This document shows positions 9,782 through 16,743 of a stretch of 53,997 nucleotides of DNA, piece after piece (position 1 is the stretch's first letter; every line of letters starts with the position of its first letter). The DNA is taken from the NCBI GenBank assembly GCA_947625435.1, contig CANQOI010000008.1:1-53997 (forward strand). The letters run 5' to 3'. The notes beneath the pieces are model-generated. The model did not search any database. It worked only from the letters and a program-made list of their open reading frames with translations, and was not told where the DNA came from. A program made the translations under genes and the position numbers. This DNA is from an uncultured Clostridia bacterium (GTDB lineage Bacteria > Bacillota > Clostridia > UBA1212 > UBA1255).

Positions 9782-10774
9782 ATGAATATAACAGTAAAAG
9801 AATATTTTACGGATGAAGGACTTCCGTGCGTGGATATAACGGGGTGCGACGAATTTGTGCCGGCGCATATATTCGAATGCGGCCAGTGCTTCAGGTGGAA
9901 CCGCGTCCCGGACACGGAGAATACATATGTGGGGATCGCCTCCGGCCGCGTGCTCGCCGTGAGCGCGTGCGTAAAGAACGGAGAGAACGTGATAACGCTG
10001 GCGAATACCGACGAAGCCCTGTTCAGAGGCTTCTGGAAGGATTATTTTGATCTGGAACGCGATTACGCCGAAATACAGAAGGAGCTTTCCCGTAAAGACG
10101 GATATCTCGGCGCCGCAGTCGGATACGGCCGCGGGATACGTATCTTAAAACAGGAACCGTTTGAGACGCTCATATCCTTCATAATATCCGCGAACAACAA
10201 CATACCGAGGATAAAGGGCTGCATCGAGAAGCTCTGCGCGGCGTACGGAAAGCGTATATGCGCGGAGGATGCGTTCGTATCGTATATAGCAAGGATATCC
10301 GGGGCGGATAAAAGCTCCGTATGTGGGGAATATCATGCATTCCCGAGCCCGGAGGAGCTGTCGGCGGCGACGAAGCATGACATAAGCGCGTGCTGCAGAG
10401 CCGGATACAGATGCGAGTATATAGAAAAGACGTCCCGCGCATACAAAGACTCGCCTATGGACACGTGTAAAATAAAAACCGCTTCCGCAGACGACGCGCG
10501 TAAAATGCTGCGCGCATACACGGGAGTGGGGCCGAAAGTGGCGGACTGCGTGCTGCTCTTCTCGGGGCTCCGCACGGACGTTTTCCCGGTGGACGTGTGG
10601 GTGCGCCGCGTGCTCGAAAAGCTGTATTTTAAGAGAAAGGTCACGGCGGCTGAGGCGGGCGCCTTCGTGAGCGGGCATTTCGGGGAGCTGGCGGGCTACG
10701 CGCAGCAGTATCTTTTTTACGGCATGAGAGAGGATCCGTCCGTATTCGACAGTATGAGCGGTCAAAGCAATTAA
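9782..10774 (+). CDS. ogg: 8-oxoguanine DNA glycosylase/AP lyase, HhH-GPD family
   Basis: A 330-residue bifunctional base-excision repair enzyme that removes 8-oxoguanine opposite C. The N-terminal domain has HIFECGQCFRWN, the OGG1-type start of the substrate-binding domain. The helix-hairpin-helix reads YTGVGPKVADCVLLF with the Schiff-base lysine at K252. The catalytic aspartate is D271 in FPVDVWVRR. The fold is the OGG1-like class that many Clostridia carry instead of MutM. It is the third gene of the P-loop/Asp23 operon, 11 bases after the DUF6062-like gene. The adjacency to a Cys-rich protein and an envelope-stress-type domain may hint at oxidative stress, but this is inference. Confidence 0.92.
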   Translation: MNITVKEYFTDEGLPCVDITGCDEFVPAHIFECGQCFRWNRVPDTENTYVGIASGRVLAVSACVKNGENVITLANTDEALFRGFWKDYFDLERDYAEIQKELSRKDGYLGAAVGYGRGIRILKQEPFETLISFIISANNNIPRIKGCIEKLCAAYGKRICAEDAFVSYIARISGADKSSVCGEYHAFPSPEELSAATKHDISACCRAGYRCEYIEKTSRAYKDSPMDTCKIKTASADDARKMLRAYTGVGPKVADCVLLFSGLRTDVFPVDVWVRRVLEKLYFKRKVTAAEAGAFVSGHFGELAGYAQQYLFYGMREDPSVFDSMSGQSN

Positions 10775-10790
10775 AATGTCGTATGCCGTA

Positions 10791-10819
10791 TTGACATGAG
10801 CAGATTAAAGCTGTATAGT
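10791..10819 (+). promoter_or_regulatory. Sigma-A promoter of the polyamine operon
   Basis: TTGACA (10791-10796) and TATAGT (10814-10819) are separated by exactly 17 bases. The predicted transcript starts near 10826, giving a leader of about 138 bases before the start codon at 10964. Confidence 0.8.
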
Positions 10820-10825
10820 TACCGA

Positions 10826-10926
10826 CTGAAAAGGTGCGGTATTCACGGGTGCATAATCGGTTGACGGGGACACCCGATCTGACAGGATTTTACGCAAGCT
10901 GACATACAACGGCCTGCGTTTTTTTT
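10826..10926 (+). ncRNA. Candidate cis-regulatory leader RNA (attenuator or riboswitch) of the polyamine operon
   Basis: Between the promoter and speA the RNA can form a CGGGTG/CACCCG stem (10846-10851 with 10871-10876) with a 19-base apical region. A second short stem GTG/CAC lies just before it, and an intrinsic terminator ends at 10926. The apical TCGGT (10857-10861) could also pair with ACCGA at the very 5' end. I compared it by memory with guanidine, SAM, preQ1, TPP and c-di-GMP classes and did not find a match. A leader ending in a terminator ahead of a biosynthetic operon is the usual design of transcription attenuation. The ligand, if any, is unknown. Confidence 0.55.
10892..10926 (+). 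terminator. Intrinsic terminator inside the polyamine operon leader
   Basis: ACGCA (10892-10896) pairs with TGCGT (10915-10919), continued by GC (10898-10899) with GC (10912-10913) around an A-C mismatch. Eight T follow. It lies downstream of the promoter and about 38 bases before the speA start, so it must be read through or prevented for the operon to be expressed. Confidence 0.75.
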
Positions 10927-10963
10927 ACTTACGCACATATGAGTGATTGTCGGGGTGGAGGAT

Positions 10964-12460
10964 ATGTACAGTAACAGCAGAGAGAGAATAACGGATCAGC
11001 GCCGCGCTCCCGTGTACGAAGCACTGGAGAATTTCAGACAGATGCGCGTCGTACCGTTTGACGTCCCGGGACATAAGCACGGAAGAGGCAACCCGGAGCT
11101 CACGGCATTTCTCGGGCAGCAGTGCGTGGAGGTAGACGTAAACAGCATGAAGCCTCTCGACAATCTGTGCCATCCCATATCGGTCATACGTCAGGCGGAG
11201 GAGCTTGCCGCGGATGCGTTCGGAGCGTCATACGCCTTCCTTATGGTGGGAGGCACCACGAGCTGTGTACAGAGTATGGTACTTGCCTCCTGCAAACGGG
11301 GCGATGAGATAATACTCCCCAGGAACGTACACAGAAGCGTCATAAATGCCCTCGTGCTGTGCGGAGCGGTACCGGTATACGTAAATCCCGAGGTGGACAA
11401 GCGCCTCGGAATATCGTTGGGCATGTGCAAGGAGCAGGTGGCAAAAGCGATAAAGGAGCACCCTAAGGCGGTGGCGGTGCTCGTGAACAATCCCACGTAC
11501 TACGGCATATGCAGCGATCTGAGATCCATAGTTAAAATGGCGCACGAGGCCGGAATGCTGTGCCTTGTGGACGAGGCCCACGGCACGCATTTTTATTTCG
11601 GTGAGAATATGCCCGTTTCGGCGATGGCGGCGGGGGCCGACATGTCGTCCGTATCGATGCACAAAAGCGGAGGCAGCCTCACGCAGTCAAGCCTTCTGCT
11701 CGTAGGCGCGAATGTATCAAAAGGGCACGTAAGACAGATAATAAACCTCACTCAGACGACATCCGGCAGCTATCTGCTCATGTCGAGCCTTGATATAAGC
11801 AGGAGGAATCTCGCTCTGCGGGGCAAGACGGTATTCAGCCGCATAGCGGAGATGGCCGAGTATGCGAGAGATGAGATAAATGCCATAGGCGGCTATTACG
11901 CGTTCGGCAGGGAGCTCGTCAATTCGAACTCCGTATTTGACTTCGATATAACAAAGCTCAGCGTGCACACGCGCGAGATAGGACTTGCGGGCATAGAGGT
12001 ATACGATATACTCAGAGACGAATACGACATACAGATAGAATTCGGAGATATAGGAAATATACTCGCTTATCTTTCCATGGGCGACCGCCCGCAGGATCTC
12101 GAAAGACTTGTGAGCGCCCTTGCCGAAATACGCAGGAGATTCCAGAGAGACAGCAGCGGCCTTCTTAACACGGAGTATATAGATCCGGAGGTTGTATCGA
12201 GCCCGCAGGAGGCATTTTACGCGGAGAAGAAGAGCGTGCCTCTCAGAGACAGCGCCGGGTGCGTGTGCAGTGAATTCGTGATGTGCTATCCGCCCGGGAT
12301 ACCGATACTGGCCCCCGGAGAGAGGATAACGCCTCAGATACTCGATTATATAGAATATGCCAGGAGAAAGGGCTGCTCCCTGACGGGCCCCGAGGATCCG
12401 GACATAATGAACATAAACGTACTGACAGGAGGTAATTCGGGTGGAGCTTTGGTTCAGTGA
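10964..12460 (+). CDS. speA: Arginine decarboxylase, fold-type I (Orn/Lys/Arg decarboxylase family)
   Basis: A PLP enzyme of the Gram-positive SpeA type, about 498 residues, which converts arginine to agmatine. Recognised blocks: FDVPGHKHGRGNPE near the N-terminus, GGTTSCVQSM, LVDEAHGTHFYFGE with the PLP-binding Asp, and SMHKSGGSLTQ with the Schiff-base lysine at about K234. The C-terminal part has CYPPGIPILAPGE. ATG 10964 fits the family N-terminus and is preceded by GGGGTGGAGG; an in-frame GTG at 10943 is possible but has no ribosome site. Lysine decarboxylases share the fold, so specificity rests on the agmatinase and SpeE genes that follow. It is the first gene of the operon and overlaps speE by 20 bases. 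Confidence 0.9.
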   Translation: MYSNSRERITDQRRAPVYEALENFRQMRVVPFDVPGHKHGRGNPELTAFLGQQCVEVDVNSMKPLDNLCHPISVIRQAEELAADAFGASYAFLMVGGTTSCVQSMVLASCKRGDEIILPRNVHRSVINALVLCGAVPVYVNPEVDKRLGISLGMCKEQVAKAIKEHPKAVAVLVNNPTYYGICSDLRSIVKMAHEAGMLCLVDEAHGTHFYFGENMPVSAMAAGADMSSVSMHKSGGSLTQSSLLLVGANVSKGHVRQIINLTQTTSGSYLLMSSLDISRRNLALRGKTVFSRIAEMAEYARDEINAIGGYYAFGRELVNSNSVFDFDITKLSVHTREIGLAGIEVYDILRDEYDIQIEFGDIGNILAYLSMGDRPQDLERLVSALAEIRRRFQRDSSGLLNTEYIDPEVVSSPQEAFYAEKKSVPLRDSAGCVCSEFVMCYPPGIPILAPGERITPQILDYIEYARRKGCSLTGPEDPDIMNINVLTGGNSGGALVQ

Positions 12461-13310
12461 ATTTCACGCGCCGGATGTGAAACACAGCATAAGAGTGAAC
12501 AGGCACCTGTATTCCGGAATGAGCGATTATCAGCAGATAGACGTATTTGACACTCCGGAATTCGGCCGTGTGCTCGCCCTCGACGGAAATGTGATGCTCA
12601 CGGAGCGCGACGAATTCATATATGACGAAATGATAACTCACGTTCCCATGGCGGTGCATCCCGGCGCGCGGGACATACTCGTGATAGGCGCGGGCGACGG
12701 AGGCGTTGTTAAGGAGCTCACGCGTTATGACACGGTCAATCGCATAGATCTCGTTGAAATGGATCCCCAAGTGATAGACGTGTGCCGTATCTATCTTCCC
12801 GAGAACGCGTCGAAGCTCGACGACGAGAGAGTCCATATAAAATATGAAAACGCACTGCGCTTCATAAGACGGTGCGACAGGGCTTACGACCTTATAATAG
12901 TGGACTCCACAGACCCGTTCGGGCCGTCCGAAGGACTTTTTACCAGAGAATTTTACGGCAGCTGCTGCAACGCTCTCAGGGATGACGGGATAATGGTGAA
13001 TCAGCAGGGAAGCCCGTTTTACAGGCACGATGCGGAGGCAATGCAGAGAAGCCATAAGAGGATCGTGAATACATTCCCCATAAGCCGTATATATCAGGCT
13101 CACATACCGACCTATGCGGCGGGATACTGGCTGTTCGGCTTTGCCAGCAAAAAATATCATCCCATAGACGACCTCGATCCGGACAGGTGGCTTTCGCGGG
13201 GACTTAAGACAAAATATTACACGACAAAGCTGCATGTCGGTTCGTTTTACCTGCCGGCTTTCCTTGAGGAAATGCTCCAGGAGGTGGAATATGCTGAGCA
13301 GGAACGTTGA
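12441..13310 (+). CDS. speE: Spermidine synthase-type aminopropyltransferase
   Basis: A 289-residue enzyme that transfers the aminopropyl group from decarboxylated SAM to a polyamine acceptor. It starts with GTG 12441, eight bases after the strong site AGGAGGT, and overlaps the end of speA by 20 bases. Motifs: YDEMITHVPM (acceptor side), VIGAGDGGVVKEL (about 80-92; the nucleotide site, GAGDGG instead of the usual GGGDGG), LVEMDPQVIDV, and IIVDSTDPFGPSEGLF with the catalytic Asp. No SAM decarboxylase (speD) is in the window. The acceptor could be putrescine or agmatine; the order speA-speE-speB would allow agmatine. See the finding on two spermidine routes. Confidence 0.92.
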   Translation: MELWFSEFHAPDVKHSIRVNRHLYSGMSDYQQIDVFDTPEFGRVLALDGNVMLTERDEFIYDEMITHVPMAVHPGARDILVIGAGDGGVVKELTRYDTVNRIDLVEMDPQVIDVCRIYLPENASKLDDERVHIKYENALRFIRRCDRAYDLIIVDSTDPFGPSEGLFTREFYGSCCNALRDDGIMVNQQGSPFYRHDAEAMQRSHKRIVNTFPISRIYQAHIPTYAAGYWLFGFASKKYHPIDDLDPDRWLSRGLKTKYYTTKLHVGSFYLPAFLEEMLQEVEYAEQER

Positions 13311-14166
13311 GAATTTCATAGGATGCGAAAGCACTTACGATGAAGCGGACACAGTGCTTTACGGCGCGCCCTTTGATTCTACTACGAGCTTTCGCCCGGG
13401 CGCGAGATTCGGACCTGCCGCCATACGGCACGAGAGCTTCGGCATAGAGACATACAGCCCGTACCGGAACGCCGATCTGACTGATAAAGCGGTATTCGAC
13501 AGCGGCGATATGGAGCTTTCCTTCGGAAGCACGGTAAAGGCGCTCGAGGATATTGAACAAAGAGCCTCCGTAATACTTGATGACGGTAAATTCCCGCTCC
13601 TCATAGGAGGCGAGCACCTTGTGACGCTGGGCGCCGTGAGATCGGTCGTCAGGAGATATCCGGATCTTCACATCATACAGTTTGACGCGCACGCGGATCT
13701 CCGGGACGATTATCTGGGCGTAAAGCTCAGCCACGCGTGTGTGATGAGACGGTGCCTGGAGCTCACGGGAGACGGCAGGATACATCAGTTCTGCATAAGG
13801 AGCGGCGACAGGTCGGAATTTGACATTGCGGCGGGGCATACGGATATGCACCTTTTCTCGTTTGACGGCATAGACGAAACGGTTGAAATGCTCGTAAAGA
13901 GCGGCGCGCCCGTTTATTTCACGATAGATCTCGACTGCCTGGATCCGTCCGTTTTACCGGGTACGGGTACGCCCGAGGCGGGAGGCGTCACATTCGCCGA
14001 GCTTGAAAAGGCCATAATGAAGGTATGTAAAACGAATGTAGTGGGCGCGGATATAAACGAGCTTTCGCCCATGCTCGATGCGAGCGGCGCGTCTACGGCG
14101 TGCGCCTGCAAGGTGCTGAGGGAGCTCATACTGGCAGTATCCGGGCGCACCGGAGCCGGACATTGA
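13291..14166 (+). CDS. speB: Agmatinase, ureohydrolase family
   Basis: A 291-residue binuclear manganese hydrolase that splits agmatine to putrescine and urea (or an aminopropyl-agmatine to spermidine). The start ATG 13291 follows AGGAGGTGGAAT directly and overlaps the end of speE by 20 bases. Metal-binding signatures in order: GGEHLVTLG, FDAHADLRDDY, and TIDLDCLDPSVLPGTGTP followed by the EAGG loop. The strong ribosome sites and short overlaps of speA, speE and speB indicate one tightly coupled transcript. Confidence 0.94.
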   Translation: MLSRNVENFIGCESTYDEADTVLYGAPFDSTTSFRPGARFGPAAIRHESFGIETYSPYRNADLTDKAVFDSGDMELSFGSTVKALEDIEQRASVILDDGKFPLLIGGEHLVTLGAVRSVVRRYPDLHIIQFDAHADLRDDYLGVKLSHACVMRRCLELTGDGRIHQFCIRSGDRSEFDIAAGHTDMHLFSFDGIDETVEMLVKSGAPVYFTIDLDCLDPSVLPGTGTPEAGGVTFAELEKAIMKVCKTNVVGADINELSPMLDASGASTACACKVLRELILAVSGRTGAGH

Positions 14167-14204: not shown

Positions 14205-15464
14205 ATGAGCAGAGTTTTGATCATAGGATGCGGCGGAGTGGCGTCGGTGGCGATACATAAGTGCTGCGCGCTGAGCGATATTTTCACGGAAATATGCATA
14301 GCGAGCCGCACAAAGTCCAAATGTGACGCGCTTGCCGAAAAGCTTGCACCCGCCACAAAAACAAAGATAACGACGGCGCATGTGGACGCCGACAGTACCG
14401 AAGAGGTGAAGGCGCTCATAGATTCATATAAGCCCGACCTTGTAATGAACATCGCTCTTCCGTATCAGGATCTTACGATCATGGACGCGTGCCTTGAGTG
14501 CGGCGTGGATTATATGGATACGGCAAATTACGAGCCCGAGAACACGGATGACCCGAAGTGGCGTGAAATATACGAAAAAAGGTGCAGAGAACAGGGCTTC
14601 TCTGCATATTTTGACTACAGCTGGCAGTGGGCGTACCGCGAAAGATTTGAGAAGGCGGGCCTTACGGCCCTGCTCGGCTGCGGATTTGACCCCGGTGTTA
14701 CACAGGCCTACTGCGCATACGCTCAGAAGCATTATTTTGACAGCATAGACACGATAGATATACTGGACTGCAACGGCGGCGACCACGGCTACGCATTCGC
14801 CACGAATTTCAACCCCGAGGTGAACCTGAGAGAGGTCTCCGCCCCGGGAAGCTACTGGGAGAACGGTCATTGGACGGAGATACCCGCCATGAGCATAAAG
14901 CGCGAGTACGACTTTGACGAGGTGGGAATGAAGGACATGTACCTCCTTCATCACGAGGAAATAGAATCCCTGGCGCAGAACATACCCGGCGTAAAACGCA
15001 TACGCTTCTTCATGACCTTCGGAAGCAGCTACCTCATGCACATGAAATGTCTCGAAAATGTGGGCATGCTCTCCACGTCTCCCGTAATGTTCGATGGGCG
15101 CGAGATAGTACCCATAAAATTCCTGAAGGCTCTTCTGCCGGATCCCGCGAGCCTCGGGCCCCGCACTCACGGTAAAACGAACATAGGATGCATTTTCACG
15201 GGCATGAAGGACGGAAAAGAGAAAAAATATTACATTTACAATGTGTGCGACCATCAGGAAAGCTACAGGGAGGTAGGAAGTCAGGCGATAAGCTACACGA
15301 CGGGCGTGCCCGCCATGTGCGGAGCTCTCATGCTCCTTACGGGCAAATGGAACAAAAAGGGAGTTCACACGGTAGAGGAGTTCGACCCCGATCCGTTCAT
15401 TGAGGCTCTTGACATGTACGGTCTTCCCAAGAAGGAGAGCTTTGAACCCGTACTTGTAGACTGA
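14205..15464 (+). CDS. Carboxynorspermidine/carboxyspermidine dehydrogenase (saccharopine dehydrogenase-like)
   Basis: A 419-residue NADPH-dependent enzyme that condenses aspartate semialdehyde with a diamine (putrescine gives carboxyspermidine). It starts at ATG 14205 after AAGGAGGAAAC. The Rossmann motif VLIIGCGGVASVAIHK is at residues 4-19, with DLVMNIALPYQDL and CGFDPGVTQAYCAYA as in the LYS9-like family. True saccharopine dehydrogenases share the fold. The assignment comes from the next gene, the matching decarboxylase, and from the preceding polyamine genes. Often called CASDH. Confidence 0.9.
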   Translation: MSRVLIIGCGGVASVAIHKCCALSDIFTEICIASRTKSKCDALAEKLAPATKTKITTAHVDADSTEEVKALIDSYKPDLVMNIALPYQDLTIMDACLECGVDYMDTANYEPENTDDPKWREIYEKRCREQGFSAYFDYSWQWAYRERFEKAGLTALLGCGFDPGVTQAYCAYAQKHYFDSIDTIDILDCNGGDHGYAFATNFNPEVNLREVSAPGSYWENGHWTEIPAMSIKREYDFDEVGMKDMYLLHHEEIESLAQNIPGVKRIRFFMTFGSSYLMHMKCLENVGMLSTSPVMFDGREIVPIKFLKALLPDPASLGPRTHGKTNIGCIFTGMKDGKEKKYYIYNVCDHQESYREVGSQAISYTTGVPAMCGALMLLTGKWNKKGVHTVEEFDPDPFIEALDMYGLPKKESFEPVLVD

Positions 15465-15471
15465 CAACGGT

Positions 15472-16743
15472 ATGAGCATACATTTTGAGCATTTAACGCA
15501 TATACTGAACGGGGGCTCTGCGGGCGGCGACAGGCCGGAAAATATGCAGAGCAGGCTCGCATCTTTTTTTGACGGCATACAGACGCCGTGCTATATCATC
15601 GACAGTCATGTATTGAGACACAACTGTGAGATACTTTCGGGCGTTGAGAAGCGCACGGGCTGCCGCATTTTGCTTGCGCAGAAGGCGTTTTCGAATTATG
15701 ACCTGTATCCGCTCATATCGGAATACTTATGCGGCACCGAGGCCAGCGGGCTCTATGAGGCGAGGCTGGGCAGAGAGAGGATGCCGGGCAGGGAAGTGCA
15801 TGTATTTTCCGCCGCCTACAGAGACGACGATTTTAAAGAGATACTGAAATATGCCGACCACATCGTATTCAATTCTCCGCGCCAGCTCGAAAAGTTCGGA
15901 TATGCCGCAAAAAATGCCGGCAAGAGCATAGGACTGAGGATAAATCCCGAATGCTCCACACAGGAAGGGCACGCCATATACGATCCCTGCGCGCCCGGCA
16001 GCCGGCTGGGCACGACGAGAGAGCAGTGGGACGCACATATGAACGAAGAACTCGTATCGCTCCTTGACGGGCTGCATTTTCACACTCTGTGCGAGCAGGA
16101 TTCGGACGCGCTGGAGGTGACTCTTGACGCCGTGAGCGATAAGTTCGGCGATGCTCTCGGTAAAATGAAATGGCTCAATATGGGCGGCGGGCACCATATA
16201 ACACGCCCCGGATACGACATAGCCCGGCTTGAAAAATGTATTAAAAGGGTTCGGGATGCTTACGGCACGGATGTGTATCTGGAGCCGGGAGAGGCGGTGG
16301 CTCTAAATGCCGGATATGCCGCGTCGAGAGTGCTCGATACAACCTGTAACGGCGGCACGCGTATTGCCGTTCTTGACATAAGCGCGGCGTGCCACATGCC
16401 GGACGTCATTGAGATGCCCTACCGCCCGCCTCTTTACAACGAACAGAGCACAGGCGGCGGCACAGACGGCGCAGAGCCCGCCGGAGCGCACCGGTACCGT
16501 CTCGGAGGCCCTACGTGCCTCGCGGGCGATGTCATAGGCGATTATTATTTTGAAAATGAGCTTGCGGAAGGGGACATACTCATATTCGGGGACATGGCGA
16601 TATATACGATGTGTAAGAACAACACATTCAACGGTATGGCGCTCCCTCCCATATATGTGCTGGATGAGAGCGGTAAAATGCAGCTTACAGCCTGCTTTGA
16701 TTATCACGATTTCGAAAAACGCCTCGGAAGCAGTAAGGAGTGA
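15472..16743 (+). CDS. nspC: Carboxynorspermidine/carboxyspermidine decarboxylase
   Basis: An alanine-racemase-fold PLP decarboxylase that turns carboxyspermidine into spermidine (or carboxynorspermidine into norspermidine). Motifs: TPCYIIDSHVLRHN, LLAQKAFSN with the PLP lysine at K71, GLHFHTLCE, NMGGGHHI, LEPGEAVALNAGY and GGPTCLAGD with the active-site Cys. The call uses ATG 15472 (423 residues), 7 bases after the dehydrogenase stop but with a weak ribosome site. The family norm is about 380 residues, and the in-frame ATG at 15544 would start at MQSRLASFFDGIQTP, closer to the family. It is the last gene of the polyamine operon; I saw no terminator after it. Confidence 0.92.
   Translation: MSIHFEHLTHILNGGSAGGDRPENMQSRLASFFDGIQTPCYIIDSHVLRHNCEILSGVEKRTGCRILLAQKAFSNYDLYPLISEYLCGTEASGLYEARLGRERMPGREVHVFSAAYRDDDFKEILKYADHIVFNSPRQLEKFGYAAKNAGKSIGLRINPECSTQEGHAIYDPCAPGSRLGTTREQWDAHMNEELVSLLDGLHFHTLCEQDSDALEVTLDAVSDKFGDALGKMKWLNMGGGHHITRPGYDIARLEKCIKRVRDAYGTDVYLEPGEAVALNAGYAASRVLDTTCNGGTRIAVLDISAACHMPDVIEMPYRPPLYNEQSTGGGTDGAEPAGAHRYRLGGPTCLAGDVIGDYYFENELAEGDILIFGDMAIYTMCKNNTFNGMALPPIYVLDESGKMQLTACFDYHDFEKRLGSSKE

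Follow-up and report, generated by a model that had tools for sequence, protein, structure and literature searches.

Does the short leader in front of a polyamine operon in an uncultured Clostridia bacterium contain a sensor of its own? The stretch of DNA analysed (hereafter the window, 53,997 nt at its full length) carries at this point a promoter, a segment of some tens of nucleotides and a terminator, which a preliminary description took for an attenuator governing the operon, with a new polyamine, arginine or agmatine sensor as a possibility. The arrangement of promoter and terminator is real; the window nevertheless lacks the part that would do the sensing, and the riboswitch idea fits the RNA found in relatives rather than the window leader itself. 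We think it probable, at roughly 70%, that the window leader is a remnant: a transcription-attenuation leader whose RNA was deleted and whose terminator is weakened.

The upstream gene encodes an 8-oxoguanine glycosylase and ends at 10774. Downstream, all on the forward strand, lie genes for a speA-type Orn/Lys/Arg decarboxylase (10964..12460; Pfam PF01276 and PF03711), the polyamine aminopropyltransferase speE (12441..13310; NF002010 and TIGR00417, above cut-off), a speB-type agmatinase (13291..14166; TIGR01230, above cut-off), a carboxynorspermidine synthase-like dehydrogenase (14205..15464; NF043000 at E 5e-121, below its cut-off) and the carboxynorspermidine decarboxylase nspC (15472..16743; TIGR01047, above cut-off). 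The gene set would fit the carboxy-intermediate route to spermidine, and no SAM decarboxylase (speD) is recognisable in the window's genome. The window speA is absent from the genomes sampled in its own genus and family, where just distant paralogues occur, and copies 77-86% identical to it are found in other families, a patchy distribution that could reflect either horizontal transfer or differential loss.

Promoter and terminator

The promoter (10791..10819, + strand) has the -35 hexamer TTGACA at 10791-10796 and the -10 hexamer TATAGT at 10814-10819, separated by 17 nt and together matching the consensus at 11 of 12 positions; the related locus L066 has the same hexamers and spacing. This strand of the window has three matches of this quality where shuffled sequence has about 0.3, some ten times more, though the numbers are small. 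The 17-spaced promoter of the preliminary description is confirmed.

The intrinsic terminator (10892..10926, + strand) is formed by a stem of 10892-10901 with 10910-10919, interrupted by one A-C mismatch, and by eight T at 10919-10926. It folds beyond chance (z -3.35), in agreement with the earlier reading of a terminator with eight T ahead of speA. It is of the ACGCAAG..CTTGCGT type that is found just before speA in relatives, to whose terminators it is homologous (nhmmer E 2e-4, with a profile of the relatives' leaders), and it is the only part of the window that this profile matches. The gap between the T run and speA at 10964 is too short for a second promoter, so that transcripts from the promoter at 10791 must cross the terminator. 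At -11.0 kcal/mol the hairpin is weaker than the terminator of every one of 57 speA leaders that bear the RNA, for which the median is -19.6 and the weakest value -13.5.

The leader RNA of the relatives

Comparison with 80 loci whose SpeA is 79-86% identical to that of the window changes the picture considerably, as most of their upstream regions contain a long conserved sequence that the window does not have. A covariance model of its 3' domain (…GACUUGUGAAACGGUCAAUAAGAGUAG…GACUCU) finds a conserved RNA of about 210-240 nt between promoter and terminator in 74 of the 80, a count that includes two weak matches (L069 and L108) and some loci that helped to build the model. The RNA is missing from L039, L041, L106, L110, L118 and L068, the last on a contig that ends too close to judge. 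In the consensus from an alignment of 35 diverse members there are 45 pairs, of which 15 show two-sided changes, and 96.9% of cells pair; none of 500 shuffles reaches any of the five measures used. Rfam family RF02440 (SpF59 sRNA, or "ldcC RNA") spans 54 nt of the relatives' RNA. The alternative guess that the RNA is raiA RNA gave no match in a search of the window's own genome alone, run without a positive control.

The RNA, which is seen at L066:2622-2975, in most of L040-L117 and in L122-L151, is not confined to speA. It also lies 5' of potA-type polyamine transporter ATPase genes (for example in L122, L131, L135, L138, L139, L144 and L147) and of speD in speD-speA operons (L004, L006), the potA and speD identities coming from a reading of the encoded proteins, and it precedes a carboxynorspermidine synthase gene in L136. 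RF02440 is above cut-off in 33 of 291 class genomes, and of 299 genomes from the phylum 15 contain the RNA according to the covariance model.

Within the RNA, the strand ACUUGUG pairs with UAUAAGU (helices 6 and 7). The same strand has a second complement, made up of the terminator's loop and 5' arm. When each core is paired with its own terminator, the predicted duplexes are more stable than those of permuted pairs (-16.7 vs -14.1 kcal/mol, none of 5000 permutations as extreme), and this holds for 25 dissimilar representatives (-15.7 vs -12.5 kcal/mol, again 0 of 5000); permutation leaves some shared ancestry in the comparison, and the effect persists where contexts differ considerably in terminator sequence. 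These complementarities are most simply read as an OFF switch, in which the folded RNA would hide the strand and let the terminator form, the strand otherwise opening the terminator.

Further natural deletion derivatives occur among these loci: L110 has lost the whole RNA domain, L041 seemingly retains just a fragment like the 5' end of the RNA, and L069 is missing part of the 3' half.

The window leader and competing explanations

No trace of the RNA is found in the window. RF02440 does not match it at the gathering score (37.2 bits), the best score in the whole genome being 17.5 bits; the 3'-domain covariance model R1 scores no higher than 0.7 bits (E 3.9) there, with filters off and 601 bases searched, and over the window's genome it finds neither a match nor any other copy of the RNA. 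A degenerate ldcC RNA hidden in the window was ruled out by profile, covariance model and alignment shuffles alike, and the resemblance of GAGCAG..GCTGTATAG in the window promoter to the 3' end of the RNA is not above chance.

What the window has kept is the start of the leader. The segment TACCGACTGAAAAGGTGCGGTATT (10820..10843, + strand) is homologous to the sequence with which the L066 transcript begins, immediately 5' of the ldcC RNA: L066 has TATAGTACCTGTTGAAAAGGTGCGATTTT there, and the window has TATAGTTACCGACTGAAAAGGTGCGGTATT. The in-register match of the first 23 nt or so after the -10 box was equalled in 4 of 20,000 shuffles, L066 being the best of all RNA-bearing relatives, and that figure is somewhat favourable in that L066 was picked out by this same similarity, with its sister position in the tree of SpeA as independent support. 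In this tree, whose bootstrap is not fully settled, the window groups with L039 and L041, both of which lack the RNA (91/90), and these three join L066 and L117, both of which bear it (95/86), leaving the window clade nested inside RNA-bearing lineages. The -10 box and the terminator hairpin are 72 nt apart in the window, as against 347 nt in L066. The ends of the window leader are homologous to the L066 start and to the relatives' terminator, and the middle, with the RNA, is missing. The 21 nt just 5' of the window terminator show no significant similarity to L066, and the 48 nt between the homologous ends (10844..10891, + strand), where relatives have the RNA and a linker, match none of the relatives' leaders beyond chance and have no traceable source, so that the RNA may have been replaced and not simply deleted. 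Likewise, L041, L039 and L110 have short leaders that are dissimilar to that of the window, except for the L041 terminator.

Homology at both ends, absence of the RNA, its covariation in relatives and the weak terminator are established at the level of sequence, and they suggest deletion as the cause of the loss. The ancestral leader, kept by most relatives, would have run from promoter through the ldcC RNA domain and a variable linker to the terminator and speA, with the strand ending in ACUUGUG having two alternative partners: one within the RNA, in which case the terminator can form (OFF), and the terminator 5' arm (ON). The window would have lost about 275 nt, comprising the RNA domain and most of the linker, and kept the promoter, the short stretch after the -10 box and the terminator. 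Once deprived of the antiterminator strand, the terminator would act solely as a fixed and leaky brake, its weakness (one mismatch, -11 kcal/mol) presumably allowing enough read-through to restore expression. Leaky constitutive read-through, free of any sensing, is thus the likely present state. Weakening of the terminator is not a general consequence of RNA loss, since L041 has lost the RNA and yet kept a strong terminator (-19.4 kcal/mol).

A protein or small RNA might instead have taken over from the lost domain and control the terminator in trans, and the retention of the hairpin and its eight T despite the loss of the RNA would be in keeping with this, but no conserved binding site is demonstrable and we consider such control unlikely.

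The new short riboswitch, in which the segment of about 66 nt after the start site would bind a polyamine, arginine or agmatine and control the terminator, is quite improbable. It has in its favour the position before a polyamine operon, the conserved terminator, the lack of any Rfam match and one fold of 10826-10935 that pairs GUAUUCA with the terminator loop. The preliminary description could not match the leader to a known class, and no Rfam class matches it: across the whole window no family reached its gathering threshold, and relaxing the cut-off to E 10 gave for the leader just a chance match of the terminator to NsiR1 (16.5 of 39 bits), with none to the SAM family. The folded leader proposed there fares less well. 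Both strands of its stem are present (CGGGTG at 10846-10851 and CACCCG at 10871-10876), but the stem is indistinguishable from chance, the upstream leader (10826-10892) folding no better than shuffled sequence (z -0.21) and the whole leader hardly differently (z -1.20, again no better), while one strand of the candidate pseudoknot, ACCGA at 10821-10825, sits at or before the predicted transcription start. Antiterminator pairing is equally at chance level, 1152 of 2000 shuffles doing at least as well as the best duplex and 350 of 1000 as well in a separate test. Within the leader only promoter and terminator rise above chance; no structured aptamer domain does so, and the proposed new sensor is accordingly unsupported, as no structure or switching potential beyond chance lies between the two. 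Searches of 31 genomes of the order (short chance matches only) and 391 of the class found no conserved homologue or DNA relative of the window leader, and no close relative of the species with the same leader; the closest relatives have a different, large RNA or none.

Attenuation by a leader peptide, with translation of a short ORF controlling the terminator, is very improbable. Two ORFs are readable, from ATG 10797 and GTG 10834, of which the second contains three Arg codons, all CGG, and stops within the terminator loop, but the ATG lies between the promoter hexamers, 5' of the predicted start site, the GTG has no properly spaced ribosome-binding site, there is no homologue in which codon conservation could be compared, and stalling at low arginine would turn on an enzyme that consumes arginine. 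The genome is metagenome-derived and a draft of 86 contigs, but misassembly is a highly improbable cause of the missing RNA: the junction lies well inside one contig of 54 kb, the segment between the homologous ends is unique sequence, the RNA is absent from two sister loci too, and the terminator itself is altered.

Known systems and the wider family

The closest known system is the ldcC RNA/SpF59 sRNA (RF02440) together with the larger Clostridia leader RNA of which it is a part. The window is like these leaders in operon type, in its promoter-proximal sequence (shared with L066) and in its speA terminator; it differs in that the RNA domain, present there, is absent, and in that its best antiterminator duplex (-10.4 kcal/mol) is at chance level where the relatives' matched duplexes lie well below it, at the average given above. 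The spermidine riboswitch, a SAM-I variant of which Salvail et al. (2023, PMC10853860) reported 13 examples, in Bacilli and in metagenomes, similarly places polyamine biosynthesis genes under transcription attenuation, but the window has no SAM-I-like sequence. The odc1 and potE candidate motifs (PMC8632094) and the speF motif (PMC11477304) are likewise cis elements linked to polyamine genes, though of other hosts (alpha-proteobacteria, Veillonella) and other structures, and the window has no Rfam match.

Further classes of polyamine riboswitch are still to be discovered, according to Salvail et al. (PMC10853860), and the relatives' leader RNA is a strong orphan riboswitch candidate. By its pairing pattern it looks like a riboswitch of the OFF type, and the genes that it precedes, on which the choice of ligand is based, point to a polyamine. 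We propose tentatively, with a little less than even confidence, that the family could be an unrecognised polyamine riboswitch class, an RNA of 210-240 nt represented in Rfam just by a 54-nt small RNA and exerting terminator/antiterminator control, in Clostridia and elsewhere in the phylum, over the genes for carboxynorspermidine synthase, speA, speD and potA, with the window lineage as a natural aptamer-deletion mutant. RF02440 is not described as a riboswitch in the literature searched, which did not extend to a 2017 paper on 224 candidate structured RNAs, and the full RNA may be described already.

The window in this respect offers a natural case of lost regulation, in which the fate of an attenuator can be followed after deletion of its sensor. 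The RNA itself is large and strongly conserved, and stands before genes of polyamine synthesis and uptake in gut Clostridia including Faecalibacterium, Gemmiger, Blautia and many uncultured lineages. If it binds a polyamine, which is directly testable, the class would greatly exceed the SAM-I variants, which are rare, in how widely it occurs. In one RNA-bearing relative (L117:2490-2793) an insertion of about 80 nt follows GGTTACTTTATA in the leader RNA, which suggests that this site is a tolerant peripheral loop.
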